56,205 nt of DNA from positions 1 to 56,205 of the forward strand of contig PGYL01000009.1 in NCBI GenBank assembly GCA_002839645.1, in the 5' to 3' direction. The stretch comes from Methanomicrobiales archaeon HGW-Methanomicrobiales-2 (GTDB lineage Archaea; Halobacteriota; Methanomicrobia; Methanomicrobiales; Methanoculleaceae). Both the position numbers and the translations under genes were made by a program. The notes under the pieces are model-generated. The model saw only the letters and a list, made by a program, of their open reading frames with translations, ran no database searches and was not told the origin of the DNA. Below, one piece after another: positions 39,374-48,286 of this stretch (position 1 is the stretch's first letter; every line of letters starts with the position of its first letter).

Positions 39374-40678
39374 ATGGACAGAGAGAGCATCAGCATACTC
39401 ATCCTGGCATCACTCGTCGTGCTCGGCTGCATCGTTGCCGGGTGCACCGATATGCCGCAAACGACATCCGGGCAGCCGGCTCCCCCCGCCGATCAGGAGA
39501 CACCGGGCCCGGCTGGAGAAGGCATCGGCAACGTCTCGGCGGGGAACAACAGGTTCGCGGCCGACCTCTACCGGCAGATTGCAGGCGACCCGACGTATGC
39601 GGGTAAAAACATCTTCTTCTCGCCCTACAGCATCTCTTCGGCCCTCGCGATCACCTACGAGGGCGCCCGCGGCACGACCGCCGACGAGATCGGGTCGGTG
39701 CTCCACCTTCCGGAGAACGAAACCCTCCAGAGATCCGGGTTTGCCGGGCTCGATGCCGCCCTGAACAACGGGGACGAGAACTACACCCTCCGCACCGCAA
39801 ACGCCCTCTGGGCGGAGGAGACCTACCCGTTCCTCCCGGCGTATGTCGATGCGGCCAGTCGGTGGTACTCGGCAAACGTCACGAACCTCGACTTCGCCAA
39901 CGACGCCGAAGCGTCGCGGCAGACGATCAACCGCTGGGTGGAGGAGAGAACCGAAGATAAGATCCGCGACCTCCTCCCCGGCGGTTCGATCGATTCCATG
40001 ACCCGGCTCGTGATCACGAACGCGATCTACTTCAAGGGAACCTGGGTCAAGCAGTTCGATCCCGCCGAGACGACCGAAGAGGAGTTCCGGGTCTCCCCGG
40101 GCGAGGCGGTGCGGGTCGAGATGATGCACCGGACAGATGAAGACGCCATATACGGCTACGCGGAGACCGGGTCTCTCCAGATGCTCAGGATGCCGTATGC
40201 GCACGGGAACGGAACCGAACTCTCGATGCTCGTCCTCCTCCCGAAGGAGGAGAATCTGACAGCGGCGGAGGAGGCGCTGGACCCCGGGACGCTCGCTGAG
40301 ATACAGGATTCACTGACCGACCGGCGCGTCAGGGTCGTCTTCCCGAAGTTCACGCTTGAAGCGGAGTACAGCCTTCCGGGAACCCTTGCAGCGATGGGGA
40401 TGCCGACGGCCTTCTCCGATGCGGCTGATTTTTCCGGGATGGACGGCACACAGGATCTCTTCATCAGCGACGTCGTCCACAAGGCGTTCGTCGACGTAAG
40501 CGAGGAGGGGACCGAGGCCGCGGCGGCGACCGGGGTCGTCATAAACGTGGCGAGCGCGCCCGGCGGGGACACCACGCCCGTCTTCCGGGCCGACCACCCG
40601 TTCGTCTTCCTCATCGTCGAGGAGGATACCGGCACGATCCTCTTTGCAGGAAGGGTCGTTGACCCGGAGAGCGTGTAA
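39374..40678 (+). CDS. serpin, lipoprotein-anchored protease inhibitor
   Basis: This 434-residue protein begins with a lipoprotein signal (ISILILASLVVLGCIVAGC), so Cys after VAG is the likely lipid anchor. The serpin fold follows from about residue 55: NIFFSPYSISSALAITYEGA, LVITNAIYFKGTWVKQFDP, and VVHKAFVDVSEEGTEAAAAT, the inhibitory hinge. Counting from the hinge puts P1-P1' at Ala-Ser in NVASAPGG, which would suit elastase-like proteases. It ends HPFVFLIVEEDTGTILFAGRV. Inhibition of an external protease is inferred from the intact hinge. Confidence 0.93.
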   Translation: MDRESISILILASLVVLGCIVAGCTDMPQTTSGQPAPPADQETPGPAGEGIGNVSAGNNRFAADLYRQIAGDPTYAGKNIFFSPYSISSALAITYEGARGTTADEIGSVLHLPENETLQRSGFAGLDAALNNGDENYTLRTANALWAEETYPFLPAYVDAASRWYSANVTNLDFANDAEASRQTINRWVEERTEDKIRDLLPGGSIDSMTRLVITNAIYFKGTWVKQFDPAETTEEEFRVSPGEAVRVEMMHRTDEDAIYGYAETGSLQMLRMPYAHGNGTELSMLVLLPKEENLTAAEEALDPGTLAEIQDSLTDRRVRVVFPKFTLEAEYSLPGTLAAMGMPTAFSDAADFSGMDGTQDLFISDVVHKAFVDVSEEGTEAAAATGVVINVASAPGGDTTPVFRADHPFVFLIVEEDTGTILFAGRVVDPESV

Positions 40679-40717: not shown

Positions 40718-41473
40718 TCACGCCTCCGTGAGCCGCTCGACGATCGTCTTCTGCAGGTATCCGATGATCGGCATGTCCGACCCGATCACCGCATACCGCC
40801 CCGACCCCGCGGTGGCGATGGCAAAGAAATCCCGGCCGTCGACCAGGATCGAGCATTCGTCCCTCCGGAGGCCCTCCATCACAGACTCGTTCACCGGCCG
40901 GGAATTCAGGAGCTCGATCACGGTCCCCCTGGCCTCATAAATCGGGAGGTTGATATCGGCACACTCTGCCCTGTTCTGCACGACCACATAGAGATCGATC
41001 TTGCGTTCGAGCGGCTTGATGACCGTGTAATACTTCCGGAGGAACTCGGGGTTGTGGCAGAGGATCACCATGCCCCTTTTCACCCGCCGGAAGAGCGCGG
41101 AGATATGGTTCTCAATCGCCCACCCGCTCCGGAGGATGAAGAACGAGTCCGCAGGAAGGCGCGGTTTGACTGAGAGGCCCTTCAACGCCTCGCGGGTCTC
41201 CTCGAGAGAGCGGATATAGTCTTCTTTGAGCCGGTCGAAGATCACGTCGATGTCGAGCACGTAGTAGGATGCCGGAGAACCCTCTTCTACACCGATGAAC
41301 CCCCGCCGAGCCAGATCGTTTAAGATATCGTAGATTCGCCCTCGGGGGACCCTGCTCGTCTCGTGGATGTCCCGTGCGGTCGCTTTCTGCAGCCCGACAA
41401 GCGTTGAGTAGACACTCGCCTCGTACTCGTTCATCCCGAGGGCGCGGAGCCCGTCGACGATCGCATTCACCAT
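40718..41473 (-). CDS. TrmB family transcriptional regulator (second copy)
   Basis: The ATG at 41473 (MVNAIVDGLRALGMNEYEAS) is preferred. A GTG at 41494 in frame would make the leader palindrome part of the gene. The 251-residue protein has the winged helix MNEYEASVYSTLVGLQKATA then RGRIYDILNDLARRGFIGV and a C-terminal domain with FFILRSGWAIENHISALFRR. It lies between the convergent serpin and the exporter cluster. It may control its own gene and possibly the serpin or exporters. Confidence 0.87.
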   Translation of the reverse strand: MVNAIVDGLRALGMNEYEASVYSTLVGLQKATARDIHETSRVPRGRIYDILNDLARRGFIGVEEGSPASYYVLDIDVIFDRLKEDYIRSLEETREALKGLSVKPRLPADSFFILRSGWAIENHISALFRRVKRGMVILCHNPEFLRKYYTVIKPLERKIDLYVVVQNRAECADINLPIYEARGTVIELLNSRPVNESVMEGLRRDECSILVDGRDFFAIATAGSGRYAVIGSDMPIIGYLQKTIVERLTEA

Positions 41474-41475
41474 TA

Positions 41476-41491
41476 CAACTCTATTGAGTTG
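41476..41491. promoter_or_regulatory. operator-like palindrome in the leader of the second TrmB gene
   Basis: CAACTC (41476-41481) and GAGTTG (41486-41491) flank TATT, directly before the ATG at 41473. The extended half TGAGTTGCAC (41485-41494) recurs exactly at 41874-41883, ahead of the exporter unit. A related GGTTGCAG lies at 44944-44951 before the second unit. This suggests that one regulator binds all three places. Confidence 0.5.
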
Positions 41492-41494
41492 CAC

Positions 41495-41951
41495 CAGACA
41501 TATGGATTGTGGGGGAGAGAGATAGATCAGCGAGAGAACCTCCTCGCACGACCGTCCCCTGCCGGGAGCGTCATGCCGCTCCAGAGAGGACGGATGAGAA
41601 CAGCACGCAGAAGCGATACCACCTGAATCGAGAAGATCGGATACCGTCGCAACATAACCGAAAAATCGGGAGAACCGTCATAATCATGCCCCGACAGGTA
41701 TCCGGCGGACCCGGCGGCAGGCCCGGATCCGGCCTGGCCGCGGTCCGCACGGCACCAGAACGTCCTTCCTATCCCCAACGCTGATCCCGGGCGCACCCCG
41801 CCAGATGACTGAACCCACATAATTCCGCGGGGGGATCCCACCCCGGAATCATAGCACGGGACGAGCCCTCTCCTGAGTTGCACTAAATTCATGATTGTCC
41901 CTTCGAAACAACTACTCCGATAAAATAAACCATTTTATAGCGAGGAAAGAC
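41495..41951. other. intergenic region with promoter of the exporter unit
   Basis: I see no coding frame with protein-like composition. A GC-rich hairpin forms at 41822-41849 (ATTCCG with CGGAAT, inner GGGG with CCCC). The TGAGTTGCAC motif is at 41874-41883. An AT-rich promoter follows (ATAAAATAAACCATTTTATAG, ending at 41940) before the ribosome site GAGGAAAG. Confidence 0.5.
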
Positions 41952-42371
41952 GTGAACTGCACAACAACCTATACTACAGGGTCCCGTCGCGGCCCCGACG
42001 ACCCGGTGTGCCGGAGGCAGGCAGGCCGGAACAGTCCCTGTAAAGAACCAGTTTTTGAGGAGACCGACCAGGTCTGGACCGAGGCCGGGTTTCTCCCGCC
42101 CGAGGATTACCGGCGGTTCGTGGCCCTGCTCCACCGTCTCGCCATGGAAGAAGAGGCCACAGCATCCCTGCTCTCGTCCGTCCTGACGGCAACGGCGGCG
42201 AAGTCAGGGACGGGCCGCGGCTACAGGATCCTTGACCCCGTGAAGCTCCGGCGCACCGCCGGGGAGTACGGGATCGGCTCCGCCGCCGGAGGCGAGACCG
42301 GGATCGCTCACGCCGTGACCCTCGCGATCATCGGTGAGTATGAGGCGAACATGCCGGAGGAGCACGCATGA
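41952..42371 (+). CDS. small accessory protein of the MMPL exporter unit, long form
   Basis: The GTG at 41952 follows GAGGAAAGAC and gives 139 residues. The N-terminal 40 residues contain four Cys-bearing positions (NCTTTY, VCRRQ, SPCKEP). The middle is a helical stretch (PPEDYRRFVALLHRLAMEEE), and the end LAIIGEYEANMPEEHA overlaps the exporter start by ATGA. No signal or membrane helix is present, so it should be cytoplasmic. I do not recognise the family. The coupling to the exporter implies a partner role. Confidence 0.6.
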   Translation: MNCTTTYTTGSRRGPDDPVCRRQAGRNSPCKEPVFEETDQVWTEAGFLPPEDYRRFVALLHRLAMEEEATASLLSSVLTATAAKSGTGRGYRILDPVKLRRTAGEYGIGSAAGGETGIAHAVTLAIIGEYEANMPEEHA

Positions 42372-44629
42372 AAAACCCGTACGAGTGGCTCGCAGACACC
42401 GTCAACAACCACACCTGGACCGTCGCCGGAATCGTGGCAGCCGTCTTCGTCCTGGCATGCTTCGGGCTCACGATGGTGACGATGGAGACCGGCGACGACA
42501 CCTACATCGACAAGGACACCCCCCGCGGTGCGCTCCTCGCTCACTACAAGGATACTTACGGCTCCGACGCGATCATGCTCATCTATGAGGCGGACAGTGT
42601 TCGAAACCCCGAGATCCTCGGGTACATCGACCGTCTCCAGGAAGACCTTCGGAACGAACGCTACGTTGCCGGAGTCTCCGGTGTCGTCGATCTCCTCAAA
42701 CAGGCGAACGGCGGCGCCCTGCCGTCGTCCAGAGCGGAGATCAACGGAATCATCGGGCAGGCCCCGCCGGAGATGGTCGAACGGATGCTGCCCTCGGACC
42801 TGATGACGATCAGCGTCATCGCCCTCGACCCGGGCGTCTCCACGCAGGTCCAGAGGCAGGTCCTCGAAAACATCGGGTCCATCATCGGCATATCGGAACC
42901 CCCGCCGGGCCTCTCGGTCACGGTCTCCGGAAGTCCGGCGTTCTCGAAGGAGATGGGTGAGGCGATGGGGGCGGAGATGGGCACGCTGATCCTTGCGGCC
43001 ATGATCCTTATGACCTTCGCGGTGATGCTCCTCTTCTCCCACGTCCGCTACCGCCTCCTTCCCGTCGGGGTCGTGACCGTCGGGCTCATCCTGACCTTCG
43101 GGCTCATGGGCATCTTCGGGATCCCGGTCAGCATGGTGGTGATTGCGGCGTTCCCGGTGCTTATCGGGGTCGGAATCGACTACGCAATCCAGTTCCAGGC
43201 CCGGTTCGATGAAGAGAGCCAGCACTCCACTCTCCCGGAAGCCGTACGGACCACAATCGTCCACTCGGGCCCTTCAATCCTGATCGCCATGACGGCGACG
43301 GCCCTCGGATTCGTCGCGATGTTCTTCACCCCGGTGCCGATGATAGCCGACTTCGGGAAGGTCTGCGCCATAGGAGTGGCCTCCTGTTATCTTGCGGCGC
43401 TCATCATCGTCCCGGTGTTTGGAATCCTCACGAACTACCGGCCGAAAGAGGCAAAATCTGTCAACTCAGCCTCCGAATCAGGGCATTCTCTCGTCGAGCG
43501 CTATGAGCACCTCATCGGGAAGATGGCCTATGCCATCGCAAAACATCCGCTCCCGGTTCTCCTGATCTTCGGCATGATTGCGGTAGGCGGTTACTACCTC
43601 GACGAGAAGGTCCCCATCAGCGCAGACGAGAAGACCTTCGTTCCCGACAATATGCCCGCCCTTGAGGATATGGAGAAGATCACCCGGACGATGGGGGCAA
43701 CGAGCACCATCCCGGTCGTCGTGACGGCGGACAACGTCCTGAGTTTGGAGACGCTTGCCTGGATCGAGCAGTTCGGGACGTATGAGCAGGAACACAACGA
43801 CAAGATAACCGGCGTGACGAGCATCGCAACCCTGATCCGGGACTACAATGGTGGAGTCCTGCCTAGAACGAGTGCAGAGATCAACGAGGTCATCACCCTG
43901 ATTCCGGAGGCGACCCTGAAGCGTTACCTCAACGGGAACATGGAAGCGGTCCTTGAGTTCTCGACGGTCTCGATGGAGATGGGCGCTCAAAAGTCCTTCA
44001 TCGAGGGGATGAAGAACGATGTGGCGTGGAACGAGCCCCCGGCCGGCGTGACGGTGAGGATCACCGGCACCACGGAGATGTTCGTCGCCCTCATGGACGA
44101 TATCAGCGAGTCCAAGATGTTCATGACCCTGCTTGGGTTCGCCTTCATCCTCACCTTCCTGCTCCTCGTCTACCGGAGAGTCGGCGCCGCATCTCCGCTC
44201 ATCCCGATCGCCTTCGTCGTGGGCTGGTGCGGGGCGATCATGTACCTCCTCGGCCTCGATTACACGCCGCTGACGGCCGTTCTCGGGTCGATGAGCATCG
44301 GCGTGGCCTCAGAGTACACCATCGTGATCATGGAGCGGTGCGAGGAGGAACTCGCCAAAGGCGTAGGATACCTCGACGCCATCCAGCATGGGGTGCAGAA
44401 GATCGGGATGGCCATCACGGTATCCGGGGTGGCGACGATCTCCGGATTTGCGGCGCTCGCCGTATCGAGCTTCAACATCATCAGCAACTTCGGGATCGTG
44501 ACGGTCCTCACCGTCGGGTTCTCGCTCGTAGGTGCGATCGTCGCGCTGCCGGCGGTCCTCTCGCTCATGTACCGCTACGCCGGGAGCTCCCGGGCCCCGA
44601 CCCCGGCAGTGACCGGGATCACGGACTGA
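42368..44629 (+). CDS. RND superfamily exporter, MMPL/HAE3 type (copy 1)
   Basis: This 753-residue protein has twelve transmembrane helices in two halves. The first half has an external domain after helix 1 (GDDTYIDKDTPRGALLAHY), then PVLIGVGIDYAIQFQARFDEE between helices. The second half has GSMSIGVASEYTIVIMERCEE at the equivalent place. These correspond to the proton-relay segments of RND transporters of the HAE3/MMPL group, which export lipids or hydrophobic compounds. The substrate is unknown. The small ORF before it is coupled. Confidence 0.9.
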   Translation: MKNPYEWLADTVNNHTWTVAGIVAAVFVLACFGLTMVTMETGDDTYIDKDTPRGALLAHYKDTYGSDAIMLIYEADSVRNPEILGYIDRLQEDLRNERYVAGVSGVVDLLKQANGGALPSSRAEINGIIGQAPPEMVERMLPSDLMTISVIALDPGVSTQVQRQVLENIGSIIGISEPPPGLSVTVSGSPAFSKEMGEAMGAEMGTLILAAMILMTFAVMLLFSHVRYRLLPVGVVTVGLILTFGLMGIFGIPVSMVVIAAFPVLIGVGIDYAIQFQARFDEESQHSTLPEAVRTTIVHSGPSILIAMTATALGFVAMFFTPVPMIADFGKVCAIGVASCYLAALIIVPVFGILTNYRPKEAKSVNSASESGHSLVERYEHLIGKMAYAIAKHPLPVLLIFGMIAVGGYYLDEKVPISADEKTFVPDNMPALEDMEKITRTMGATSTIPVVVTADNVLSLETLAWIEQFGTYEQEHNDKITGVTSIATLIRDYNGGVLPRTSAEINEVITLIPEATLKRYLNGNMEAVLEFSTVSMEMGAQKSFIEGMKNDVAWNEPPAGVTVRITGTTEMFVALMDDISESKMFMTLLGFAFILTFLLLVYRRVGAASPLIPIAFVVGWCGAIMYLLGLDYTPLTAVLGSMSIGVASEYTIVIMERCEEELAKGVGYLDAIQHGVQKIGMAITVSGVATISGFAALAVSSFNIISNFGIVTVLTVGFSLVGAIVALPAVLSLMYRYAGSSRAPTPAVTGITD

Positions 44630-44739
44630 TACCCCGGTTGTCTGCGCTTCAACCCCGCGAGAAACGCGGGAAGGCCTGCCGTCGGACCCCAAAACCCTTA
44701 TTTTCCTTCCGACGTTGCCGGGAGAGGCTGAGTCTGCCG

Positions 44740-44853
44740 TCAGTACCCGTCAAGGAGCGCGGCGAAGAGCTGCGCCTCTGCCTCTCGCAGGTGCTCGATT
44801 GCGGCGGCCTTGCTGATGCCCCTCTTCTTCGCAAACTGCCGGTTGTTGATCCT
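44740..44853 (-). pseudogene. C-terminal HTH remnant of a Bat/HTH-10-like regulator
   Basis: On the minus strand the last 38 codons of an open frame read INNRQFAKKRGISKAAAIEH then LREAEAQLFAALLDGY and stop. This is a helix-turn-helix with the typical GIS-K-x-E-HLR-xAE-x-L spacing of the HTH_10 domain. The codons before it are antisense to the second copy's promoter and do not look like protein, so only the domain end survives. It marks a recombination breakpoint between the two exporter units. Confidence 0.45.
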
Positions 44854-45017
44854 GTGGGGATGAGAGATCGGTAGGGAAAGCGCAGGCGAGCCGGCAGCAA
44901 AGAACCCCGCACGAGAACCGGGCCGTGATGCCCCTTCCTCCGGGGTTGCAGTAAGTTCATCTCCGGTCCCATAGAAACAGTACCCCAACAGACGAGCCAC
45001 CTATAGCGAGGAGAGAC

Positions 45018-45212
45018 GTGAGCTACATCATTCCCTGTAACACCGGACCCTGCCGGTGCTCCAATGAACGTCGATGCCCCATGCGTCCGGAGCGGTCGTA
45101 CGAGGAACTGTTTTTTAAGGAGACCAACCAGATCCAGGCTGAAATTACCCATGCAGGGACCCTCGCGATCATCGGTGAGTATGAGGCGAACATGCCGGAG
45201 GAATACACATGA
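45018..45212 (+). CDS. small accessory protein of the MMPL exporter unit, short form
   Basis: The GTG at 45018 follows GAGGAGAG and gives 64 residues. The N-terminus has Cys-rich IPCNTGPCRCSNERRC. The end, LAIIGEYEANMPEEYT, is nearly identical to that of the longer paralogue at 41952. The central helical segment of the long form is absent. It overlaps the exporter start by ATGA. The conserved ends suggest that the Cys-rich head and the tail carry the function, or that the tail sequence only serves coupling. Confidence 0.55.
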   Translation: MSYIIPCNTGPCRCSNERRCPMRPERSYEELFFKETNQIQAEITHAGTLAIIGEYEANMPEEYT

Positions 45213-47467
45213 AAAACCCGTACGAGTGGCTCGCCGCCGCCATCAACAACCACACCTGGGCCGTCGCCGGCATCGCCGCCGCTGTCTTCATCCTGGCATG
45301 CTTCGGGCTCTCGATGGTGACGATGCAGACCGGCGACGACACCTACGTCGACAAGACCACCCCCCGCGGCGCGCTCCTCGCCCACTACGCCGACACTTAC
45401 GGCTCCGACGCGATCATGCTCATCTATGAGGCGGACAGCGTCCGGAGCCCCGATGTCCTCAGGTTTATCGACGGTCTCCAGGAAGACCTCAGGAACGAGC
45501 GTTATGTCGCTAGTGTCTCCGGCGTCGTCGATCTCCTCAAACAGGCGAACGACGGCACCCTGCCGTCGTCCAAAGCGGAGATCGACGCCATCATCGGACA
45601 GGCCCCGCCGGAGATGGTTGAGCGGATGCTGCCCTCGGACCTGATGACGATCAGCGTCATCGCCCTCGAGCCGGGCGTCACCATGGAGGCCCAGATGCGG
45701 GTCGTCGAGAACATCCAGTCCGCCGTGGGCACATCGGAGCCGCCGCCGGGCCTCGCGGTCACGGTCTCCGGAAACCCGGCGTTCTCGAAAGAGATGGAGG
45801 AGGAGATGGGAGGGCAGATGGGCATGCTGATCCTTGCGGCCATGCTTCTCATGGTCCTCGCAGTGCTGCTCCTCTTCTCCCACGTTCGCTACAGCCTCCT
45901 CCCCGTCGGGATCGTGGCTGCCGGGGTGATCATGACCTTCGGGTTTATGGGCCTCTTCGGCATTCCCATCAGCATGACGGTGATCGCGGCGTTCCCGGTG
46001 CTCATCGGGATCGGGATCGACTACGCGATCCAGTTCCATGCCCGGTTCGACGAAGAGATCCGGCGCGGCACCATCCCGGAGGCCGTATGGGCCACCGTCA
46101 CCCAGATGGGGCCCTCGGTCCTGATCGCGATGCTGGCGACGGCGCTCGGATTCATCGCGGTGTTTTTTGGCCCGGTGCCGATGATAGCCGACTTTGGGAT
46201 CGTCTGCACCATCGGGGTCGTCTCCTGCTACCTCGCGGCGTTGATCGCCGTCCCGATCGTTGCAATCATCACCCGCTACCGGCCGAAGAAGGAGGTTGCC
46301 GCGTCCGGCACCCCCCCGGGGCAGGGGAACGCTGTCATGGAGCGGTATGACCGGTTCCTCGGCCGGCTGGCCTCTACAGTCGCAAAATACCCGATCCCGG
46401 TCATCCTGCTCTTTACAGTGGTCGCGGCAGGGGGCTTTTACCTCGACGAGAGGGTCCCCATCAGCGCGGACGAGAAGACCTTCGTTCCCGGCGATATGCC
46501 CGCCCTCCTGGATATGGAGAAGCTCACCCGGACCATGGGGTCGACGACCACTATCCCGGTCGTCGTGACCGCGGACGATGTCCGGAGCCCGGAGACACTT
46601 GCGTGGATCGATCGGTTCGGGGTCTACGAGCAGGAGCACAATGACAAGATAAACGGGGTAACGAGCATCGCAACCCTGATCAGGCAATACAATGACGGGG
46701 TGCTGCCCTCGACCAGAGGAGAGATCGACGAGGTCACCGCCCGCATCCCGGAGTCGACCCTGAAGCGCTACCTCAACGGAAACATGGAGGCGGTGCTCGA
46801 GTTCTCGACGGTCGATATGGGGATGAGCGCCGCCCGCGACCTCGTCGGAAGGATGCAGGGCGACGTTGCGTGGAACAACCCCCCCGCCGGCGTGACGGTG
46901 AAGATCACCGGCCAGCTGGAGATGTTTTCCGCGCTCATGGACGACATCGCCGATTCCAAGACCTTCATGACCCTGCTCGGGTTCGCCTTCATCCTCGGGT
47001 TCCTGCTCCTCGTCTACCGGAAGTTCGGGGCCGTCGCACCGGTCATCCCGATCGTCTTCATCGTGGGCTGGAACGGGGCGATCATGTACCTCCTCGGCCT
47101 CGACTACACCCCGCTGACGGCCGTTCTCGGGTCGATGACGATCGGTGTCGCGTCCGAGTACACCATCCTGATCATGGAGCGGTGCGAAGAGGAACTTGCC
47201 CGGGGTATGGAGTTCCTCGACGCCATCCAGACCGCCGTGCAGAAGATCGGGACGGCTATCACGGTCTCGGGGATGACGACGGTCTTCGGGTTCTCGGCGC
47301 TCACCCTCTCGACGTTCAACATCATCAGCAACTTCGGGATCGTGACGGTCATATCCGTCGGGTTCTCGCTCGTGGGCGCGATCGTCGTGATGCCGGCGGT
47401 CCTTGCACTCTTATACCGCTACACCGGGCGCTCCCGTGCCCCTGCGCCGGCCGGGATCGCGGAGTAA
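45209..47467 (+). CDS. RND superfamily exporter, MMPL/HAE3 type (copy 2)
   Basis: This 752-residue protein is a close paralogue of copy 1, similar throughout (for example GIGIDYAIQFHARFDEE, GSMTIGVASEYTILIMERCEE). Differences cluster in the external loops, such as around residues 370-380 after the first half. Twelve helices are expected. It may have diverged in substrate. Confidence 0.9.
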   Translation: MKNPYEWLAAAINNHTWAVAGIAAAVFILACFGLSMVTMQTGDDTYVDKTTPRGALLAHYADTYGSDAIMLIYEADSVRSPDVLRFIDGLQEDLRNERYVASVSGVVDLLKQANDGTLPSSKAEIDAIIGQAPPEMVERMLPSDLMTISVIALEPGVTMEAQMRVVENIQSAVGTSEPPPGLAVTVSGNPAFSKEMEEEMGGQMGMLILAAMLLMVLAVLLLFSHVRYSLLPVGIVAAGVIMTFGFMGLFGIPISMTVIAAFPVLIGIGIDYAIQFHARFDEEIRRGTIPEAVWATVTQMGPSVLIAMLATALGFIAVFFGPVPMIADFGIVCTIGVVSCYLAALIAVPIVAIITRYRPKKEVAASGTPPGQGNAVMERYDRFLGRLASTVAKYPIPVILLFTVVAAGGFYLDERVPISADEKTFVPGDMPALLDMEKLTRTMGSTTTIPVVVTADDVRSPETLAWIDRFGVYEQEHNDKINGVTSIATLIRQYNDGVLPSTRGEIDEVTARIPESTLKRYLNGNMEAVLEFSTVDMGMSAARDLVGRMQGDVAWNNPPAGVTVKITGQLEMFSALMDDIADSKTFMTLLGFAFILGFLLLVYRKFGAVAPVIPIVFIVGWNGAIMYLLGLDYTPLTAVLGSMTIGVASEYTILIMERCEEELARGMEFLDAIQTAVQKIGTAITVSGMTTVFGFSALTLSTFNIISNFGIVTVISVGFSLVGAIVVMPAVLALLYRYTGRSRAPAPAGIAE

Positions 47468-47587: not shown

Positions 47588-48286
47588 GTGGCAAATGGAG
47601 ACCTCACGGCGCAAGTTTTGGCGCCATTTGAGCCGGTTGAAGAACTGGCCCGTAACGTCATTCTGTTTCTACCCAACCTCATTGCAGCGATCATCATCCT
47701 GATCATCGGCTGGATCCTCGGACGCATCCTCGGCAGGGTTGTTGCCGAGCTCCTCGACCGGCTCGGTGTCGACGACGCACTCCGGAAGACCTCGGCCGGC
47801 AAGCAGATTGAACGATCCACGATGAACATAAGCCGCCTCTTCGACCTCATCGTCCGCTGGTTCATCTACCTCATCGCGATCCTCACAGCGGTCAGCGTCC
47901 TCCAGATCCCGACCCTGACAGCGGCGGTCGCGGTTATCGTGGCCTACATCCCGAACATCGTCGCGTTCATCCTGATCCTCGTCATCGGGATCATCCTGAT
48001 CGATTGGCTCATGGACATCCTTCAGGGCATGGGGGAGGTACAGAGTATCCAGGGCTTCGGGCTGATCGCGATGCTGCTGCGGGCGTTCCTCTACTTCGTC
48101 GTCGCCATCCTCGCGCTCCAGCAACTCTTGATCGACCTCTCGATCATCTACGTCTTCGTCGTCCCGATCGCATGGGGAGTCGGCCTCGGCCTCGGTGCGG
48201 CGATCGCCATCATCGTCGGACTCGGCATGCGTGACCGGGCGCCGGAACTCATGGACCAGTTGATAGGCAAAGTGAAAAGAGAATAA
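47588..48286 (+). CDS. MscS-like membrane protein with conserved TM-helix repeats
   Basis: The GTG at 47588 starts a 232-residue protein with four or five helices: NLIAAIIILIIGWILGRILG, LIVRWFIYLIAILTAVSVLQ, PNIVAFILILVIGIILIDWL and a C-terminal pair. The pattern matches the conserved TM-helix family related to small-conductance mechanosensitive channels. It lacks the cytoplasmic beta domain of MscS. It may act in osmotic release. The ribosome site GGTGG is just upstream. Confidence 0.78.
   Translation: MANGDLTAQVLAPFEPVEELARNVILFLPNLIAAIIILIIGWILGRILGRVVAELLDRLGVDDALRKTSAGKQIERSTMNISRLFDLIVRWFIYLIAILTAVSVLQIPTLTAAVAVIVAYIPNIVAFILILVIGIILIDWLMDILQGMGEVQSIQGFGLIAMLLRAFLYFVVAILALQQLLIDLSIIYVFVVPIAWGVGLGLGAAIAIIVGLGMRDRAPELMDQLIGKVKRE

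Follow-up and report, generated by a model that had tools for sequence, protein, structure and literature searches.

Tandem exporter genes preceded by small overlapping genes

In contig PGYL01000009.1 of Methanomicrobiales archaeon HGW-Methanomicrobiales-2 (positions 1 to 56,205; this whole stretch of 56,205 nucleotides is called the window here), two tandem genes encode HAE3 (MMPL) exporters that are 74% identical to each other. Each is preceded by a small open reading frame (ORF), and a gene for a TrmB-family regulator lies divergent from the first of these. We describe this locus and the likely origin of the small protein, which by its sequence is a circularly permuted fragment of CO dehydrogenase (CODH). 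The closest named relatives are found in Methanoculleus, below referred to as the genus. The locus comprises the following features (lengths in amino acids, aa):

40718–41494, minus strand: TrmB-family regulator, 258 aa, divergent from small gene A; Pfam TrmB PF01978, E 3e-20
41486–41503, plus strand: GTTGCA-type element, candidate operator; overlaps the TrmB gene start, 3 mismatches to GRGTTGCASYARRTTCAT
41875–41892, plus strand: GTTGCA-type element, candidate operator; about 60-75 bases before small gene A
41952–42371, plus strand: small gene A, 139 aa; variable N-terminal part, then segment B, then segment A
42057–42359, plus strand: conserved core of small protein A, matched by the A3 profile with E 1.9e-29
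42368–44629, plus strand: HAE3 (MMPL/RND) exporter A, 753 aa; TIGR00921 500.3 bits, cutoff 351.9
44943–44960, plus strand: GTTGCA-type element, candidate operator; before small gene B, 0 mismatches to GRGTTGCASYARRTTCAT
45018–45212, plus strand: small gene B, 64 aa, the short form; only head and tail are kept, and it lacks most of the CODH-like core
45209–47467, plus strand: HAE3 (MMPL/RND) exporter B, 752 aa; TIGR00921 514.9 bits, cutoff 351.9

Small ORF A starts with GTG at 41952 and ends with a TGA stop at 42369-42371, and the ATG of exporter A at 42368 gives an ATGA overlap. Small ORF B, from its GTG at 45018 to its end at 45212, overlaps exporter B in the same way. Both small ORFs terminate in LAIIGEYEANMPEE plus two residues. 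Shine-Dalgarno-like sequences, GAGGAAAG and GAGGAGAG, lie upstream of the GTG codons, and a similar stretch occurs in the Methanoculleus relatives displayed. These coordinates agree with a preliminary description of this DNA, made from the sequence, which had reported a duplicated MMPL exporter with a GTG-started, ATGA-overlapping small ORF before each copy and a short form reduced to head and tail. In the Pfam and NCBIfam scans of the window proteins no family was found for small protein A; small protein B had no NCBIfam family, and its sole Pfam match was to COB_C at chance level. Phage records held no match to small protein A.

By its sequence, the small protein is a circularly permuted CODH fragment

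An 18-member profile of the small protein matched CODH chains in the PDB with a best E of 1.1e-9, and with the wider family this improved to 4.2e-11. Segment A (profile positions 86-129) corresponds to CODH residues 117-160 and segment B (profile positions 40-78) to residues 181-220; the order in the small protein, B then A, is thus opposite to that in CODH. Direct matches of the 18 members to Prismane and TIGR01702 were weak (best 0.0045 and 0.024, respectively).

The order of the segments was then reflected in profile scores against 14 archaeal CODHs. A native-order profile of 60 members, from which four of 64 core rows had been dropped as fragments (L125, L133, L143, L146), matched all 14 solely in two separate pieces of 17-37 bits, the best piece per CODH reaching 25-37 bits. 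With the swapped-order profile each of the 14 was matched in a single uninterrupted stretch scoring 53-69 bits, and a scan of cut points peaked near the natural segment boundary. As controls, 20 column-shuffled profiles scored at most 3.3 bits and a reversed profile 0.6 bits. In the PDB the swapped profile likewise matched in one stretch (39.7 bits in 6t7j, 40.6 bits in 6elq). A3 was built from 24 of the 33 rows left after redundancy reduction, and A4 from 20 swapped rows out of the 28 displayed.

Judged by these profiles, the small protein is a free-standing, circularly permuted fragment of the CODH N-terminal helical domain that is devoid of the metal-cluster machinery. The earlier assignment to an unknown family is therefore not upheld. 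The N-terminal domain of one CODH, residues 1-235, is predominantly alpha-helical according to PMC9311411; the window protein, with 139 aa in all, is without the catalytic middle and C-terminal domains of CODH. The idea that the genome of the window has no CODH was rejected, as the wider profile found there, on contig C30, a full-size CODH-like ORF of 692 aa (L197; Prismane E 5e-132).

Both segment orders occur as small proteins

Small proteins in CODH order were also found. Four loci (L147-L150) encode proteins of 111-112 aa that match the swapped profile as one domain with 47-59 bits. The neighbouring gene is TetR-like by Pfam at L149, where a binding-protein gene (SBP_bac_11) is also nearby; the neighbours at L147, L148 and L150 were likened to it by position and length only. 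A fifth small protein in CODH order, at L200, has a TetR-family neighbour and a CODH-like ORF in its vicinity. Together, these five span 94-112 aa. Directly before exporters of another HAE3 clade we found 96-aa ORFs (L198, L199, L201; the one at L201 lies inside a longer open frame), in which segment B is preceded by a trace of segment A, and at L151 a 92-aa ORF with segment B only precedes an exporter of this second clade. The exporters of these four loci form one clade (support 100). The small proteins present a natural circular permutation of which both orders survive within the same archaeal order. At L143, which is the same place as L029, a small ORF has lost the linker, leaving segment B joined directly to part of segment A.

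The small protein is conserved and under purifying selection

Homologues were collected starting from exporter relatives (79 loci). Full-length small ORFs precede the exporter in Methanoculleus, and divergent ones, with identity down to 26%, occur in other Methanomicrobiales; even where members are only about 20-30% identical to each other, the core keeps its CODH-like pattern. By a simple counting method, the core had a ratio of non-synonymous to synonymous changes (dN/dS) of 0.30 among 15 genus sequences and the N-terminal stretch one of 0.37; the ratio was >1 in the last residues, which are the least conserved part of the protein. The value for the core is close to that of the exporter (0.28, 14 genus sequences). 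Relatives across the order, together with the core dN/dS of about 0.30, show that the small ORF is more than a chance reading frame. A weak match at L070 (E 0.1), in part of a different ORF that appears DNA-binding-like by eye, was taken as chance.

Two traits stressed in the preliminary description fared less well. The shared ending of the two small ORFs exists as reported, but it is not special: the exact run of 45 bases has counterparts of 44 and 47 bases within the two exporters, and the identical endings were rejected as a conserved motif. Cysteines do not define the protein either. Cys3 is present in 14, Cys7 in 11 and Cys12 in 6 of the 15 genus sequences (manual count), the Cys-bearing stretch is absent or different outside Methanoculleus, and no Cys is found among the invariant or nearly invariant columns of alignments A2 and A3.

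The short form could be compared in one pair, the window and L010. Its dN/dS of 0.36, from 13.5 synonymous and 19.5 non-synonymous changes, hints at coding constraint, and on this single pair the view of the short form as a pure relic was rejected. A value of 0.93 for exporter A, obtained alongside, came from an unaligned comparison and was not used.

The small gene is accompanied by exporter and TrmB genes

In the order-wide search, matches were obtained in 135 of 232 genomes, and in 137 with the wider profile; these numbers mix small proteins with full CODH genes. The permuted small protein itself was present in 59 of the 232 genomes, counted manually from the rows displayed where most of the model matches, and only in families f1, f4 and f5. 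In number and handles of its genomes, the set labelled as class did not differ from the order set. In the phylum (392 genomes), among the matches listed, those over most of the model were all within the order of the window, and nearly all matches listed from outside the order lay in ORFs of at least 500 aa, as expected of CODH. Gene contexts were read for a fetched subset of the genome-search matches and for the loci from the first order search.

This gave 65 loci with the permuted form, L111 being omitted as the same place as L112. An HAE3 exporter lies directly downstream of the small gene in 60 of them, although at L138 it is only a fragment, and a TrmB homologue lies within about 1.6 kb upstream in 57, once on the same strand. 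In the genus the gap between small gene and exporter is -4 in 28 of 29 loci; at the remaining one, L099, the exporter alignment begins inside the gene. Outside the genus, four loci have the gap of -4 and the other exporter-bearing loci gaps of 6-103 bases (L138 apart). The ORF was looked for in other genomes and is present and conserved there, so that the refuting condition named in the preliminary description did not arise; the proposed conserved and selected companion of HAE3 exporters is borne out by the 59 loci with an intact exporter and the one with a fragment.

TrmB goes with the small gene also when counted per exporter. Among exporters with at least 1.4 kb of upstream sequence, TrmB was present in 26 of 31 with the permuted small gene, in 6 of 53 with no small gene and in 0 of 4 with other small ORFs (CODH-order group), related rows in these counts not being independent. 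At L014 and L016 both TrmB and exporter are kept and no intact small gene was detected.

The exporter pair is an old duplication

The exporter tree started from 145 exporters, of which four were omitted because their upstream sequence was too short; reduction of near-copies left 102 rows. The B exporters of the window and of L010 carry the label 'none' in this tree because the short form falls below the threshold. All 35 rows with the permuted form and all four of the CODH-order group fall within one part of 61 rows, and the other 41 rows have no small gene; the split between the two parts is weakly supported (50). On this tree the permuted label requires 9 changes, which implies that losses or transfers were frequent.

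The tandem pair goes back to an old duplication: one clade (100) unites exporter A of the window with those of L007, L010 and L026, and the B exporters group with exporters of single-copy species (14 rows, 99). Exporter B is preceded by no full-length small ORF in any of the four tandem species examined (window, L007, L010, L015): the short form is present in the window and in L010, a degraded copy in L007 and a broken one in L015. Before exporter A the small ORF is intact in the window, L007 and L010, and the L015 contig begins inside exporter A. Another genus has a tandem pair of HAE3 exporters as well, at L141, where a single small gene lies before the first exporter.

A candidate operator shared by the regulator gene and both operons

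The regulator of the window contains a TrmB domain that matches PF01978 with 72.3 bits, against a gathering score of 25.6. When up to three mismatches are allowed, GRGTTGCASYARRTTCAT occurs at three sites in the 56 kb, all within the module: at the start of the TrmB gene and before each small gene. None of 100 shuffles had three such sites, and the mean expected by chance is 0.33. In the genus, 29 loci were examined, of which 28 have TrmB in reach. According to manual counts, 25 of these 28 loci have a GTTGCA site in the stretch between TrmB and the small gene, and 14 have one at the corresponding position of the TrmB start; the sites often form the palindrome GTTGCAAC. From this motif, control by TrmB of its own gene and of both small-gene/exporter operons via the GTTGCA element appears probable.

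Two further genes flank the module. By eye, the protein of a 434-aa ORF at 39374-40678 (plus strand) resembles a serpin and seems to carry a lipoprotein signal; such a protein would be unusual for archaea. Directly 3' of the exporter pair, at 47588-48286 (plus strand), a 232-aa membrane protein is encoded that resembles, by eye, the membrane part of small-conductance mechanosensitive channels.

A proposed adaptor between exporter and regulator

We consider it about as probable as not (roughly 0.5) that the locus is a TrmB-controlled export module whose small cytosolic protein is an adaptor for exporter, regulator or both. At the sequence level, this soluble helical protein derives by circular permutation from the helical domain at the N-terminus of CODH; it has no conserved metal ligands and, as far as can be judged, is cytosolic. 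By gene order, it forms one module with the divergent TrmB and the HAE3 exporter, and TrmB probably acts on its own gene and on both operons through their common element. The adaptor would most likely dock on the exporter from the cytosol, on the regulator, or on both, and in this way export and expression could answer to the same cargo or state. Where exporters are in tandem, both would be served by the intact protein encoded ahead of exporter A, the copy before exporter B having shrunk or broken. A soluble adaptor for both partners is favoured because the small gene is found with the regulator where no exporter is near and with the exporter where the regulator is lacking. We infer this role from genes and sequences. 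The arrangement in G123 and G121 (loci L139 and L202), with the small gene beside TrmB, no adjacent exporter and an exporter of a neighbouring clade about 20 kb away on the same contig, speaks for an action of the small protein in trans.

Several observations weigh against this reading. The GRGTTGCASYARRTTCAT pattern was drawn from two of its own three sites. Five of the 65 loci (L128, L139, L140, L146, L202) have TrmB but no adjacent exporter, and two of them have binding-protein genes of the ATP-binding cassette (ABC) type instead: at L140 the small gene is followed by an SBP_bac_11 substrate-binding protein (9e-58), with a permease recognized by eye, and at L146 by a protein that looks substrate-binding-like. 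Since 63 of the 102 compared exporters lack a small companion gene, the small protein is not a general HAE3 partner; of the earlier proposal of an HAE3 partner, the coupling to the exporter has stood, but it is incomplete in that the tie to TrmB is equally close. In a mirror-tree comparison, evolutionary distances of the small protein did not separate exporter from regulator as its partner (partial correlations 0.16 and 0.19; 23 loci, one of whose cores, L133, is only a fragment). The structure model of small protein A, with five helices, is of middling quality (predicted local distance difference test, pLDDT, 72.6; predicted template modelling score, pTM, 0.63), most of the first 30 residues having a pLDDT <50. 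The fold searches were uninformative: Foldseek returned 39 matches, none with E <0.001 and with a CODH chain at rank 15 (E 8.2), and VIA reached a best Z of 3.0. Both aligners follow chain order.

It is rather unlikely that the small protein is only a subunit or gate of the exporter, with the nearness of TrmB reflecting mere operon control. The overlapping genes of the genus, the exporter adjoining in 60 of 65 loci, five exporter loci that have the small gene and no TrmB, and the second, CODH-order small gene before another exporter clade, again without TrmB, would all agree with such a role. Yet five loci keep the small gene with TrmB and no adjoining exporter, CODH-order relatives stand beside TetR regulators without an exporter, and exporters that have no small gene mostly have no TrmB either.

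We hold the converse to be unlikely, namely a small protein that works with the divergent helix-turn-helix regulator, as its ligand sensor or co-regulator, and is linked to the exporter only by the shared controlled operon. Several findings point in this direction: TrmB is present in 57 of the 65 loci, some small genes stand with TrmB only or before a substrate-binding-protein gene, the CODH-order form occurs beside TetR, and the candidate operators are shared. But small genes are retained beside exporters without TrmB (5 of 31), the four small genes of the CODH-order group that precede an exporter have no TrmB nearby, and L014 and L016 combine TrmB and exporter with no intact small gene. Very improbable is a leader ORF that mainly provides translational coupling, its protein doing little: the ATGA overlap and the second copy of the window, which overlaps its exporter without most of the core, fit this idea, but the core keeps its CODH-like pattern and is under purifying selection, and the overlap is missing in most other genera.

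That a CODH fragment is kept together with an exporter and a regulator suggests that part of an enzyme was taken over for a new task in export or its control. If this is true, a helical piece of an ancient metalloenzyme was cut loose, permuted and taken on as partner of an exporter and its regulator, and such recruitment spans several methanogen families. Archaeal HAE3 exporters would gain a genetic handle, comprising a regulator, a candidate operator and a soluble partner, for tests of substrate and control.

Comparison with known systems

Our searches of a literature collection found no description of the module of small gene, exporter and TrmB. A survey of CODH diversity and gene context reports that putative metal transporters and transcription factors cluster with full CODH genes, and stand-alone CODH fragments are unmentioned in the excerpt concerned (PMC6344411). 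Compared with the Ni-CO dehydrogenase CooS (PF03063 Prismane, TIGR01702), nearly the whole core is matched by CODH residues of about 117-160 and 181-220, but the segment order is reversed, about 105 core residues stand against about 630-670, and the conserved cluster cysteines and the rest of the enzyme are lacking.

The window exporters score far above the curated cutoff of the HAE3 family (TIGR00921) and are members of it; what sets them apart is the coupling to a small partner gene, absent from 63 of the 102 exporters compared. With the TrmB family (PF01978) the window regulator and four upstream regulators tested elsewhere share the DNA-binding domain, but the window regulator stays far below the equivalog cutoffs of NCBIfam, with 68.4 of 650 bits for NF047390 and 45.6 of 600 bits for NF040851, and so differs from the TrmB/TrmBL1 sugar sensors.

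GlnK, together with AmtB, is an example of a small soluble protein that reports the state of a transporter. No sequence relation to GlnK is expected, and binding by the small protein described here is only proposed; the likeness would be one of working mode, namely a small protein of the cytosol whose gene shares an operon with that of a transporter and which is tied to the regulation of that transporter. By this analogy the permuted CODH fragment could be a soluble messenger that physically links the HAE3 exporter to TrmB, forming a circuit of the GlnK kind around an RND-type exporter, and the CODH-order form might do likewise with the other exporter clade and with TetR, a far-reaching version of the adaptor reading that we regard as unlikely.

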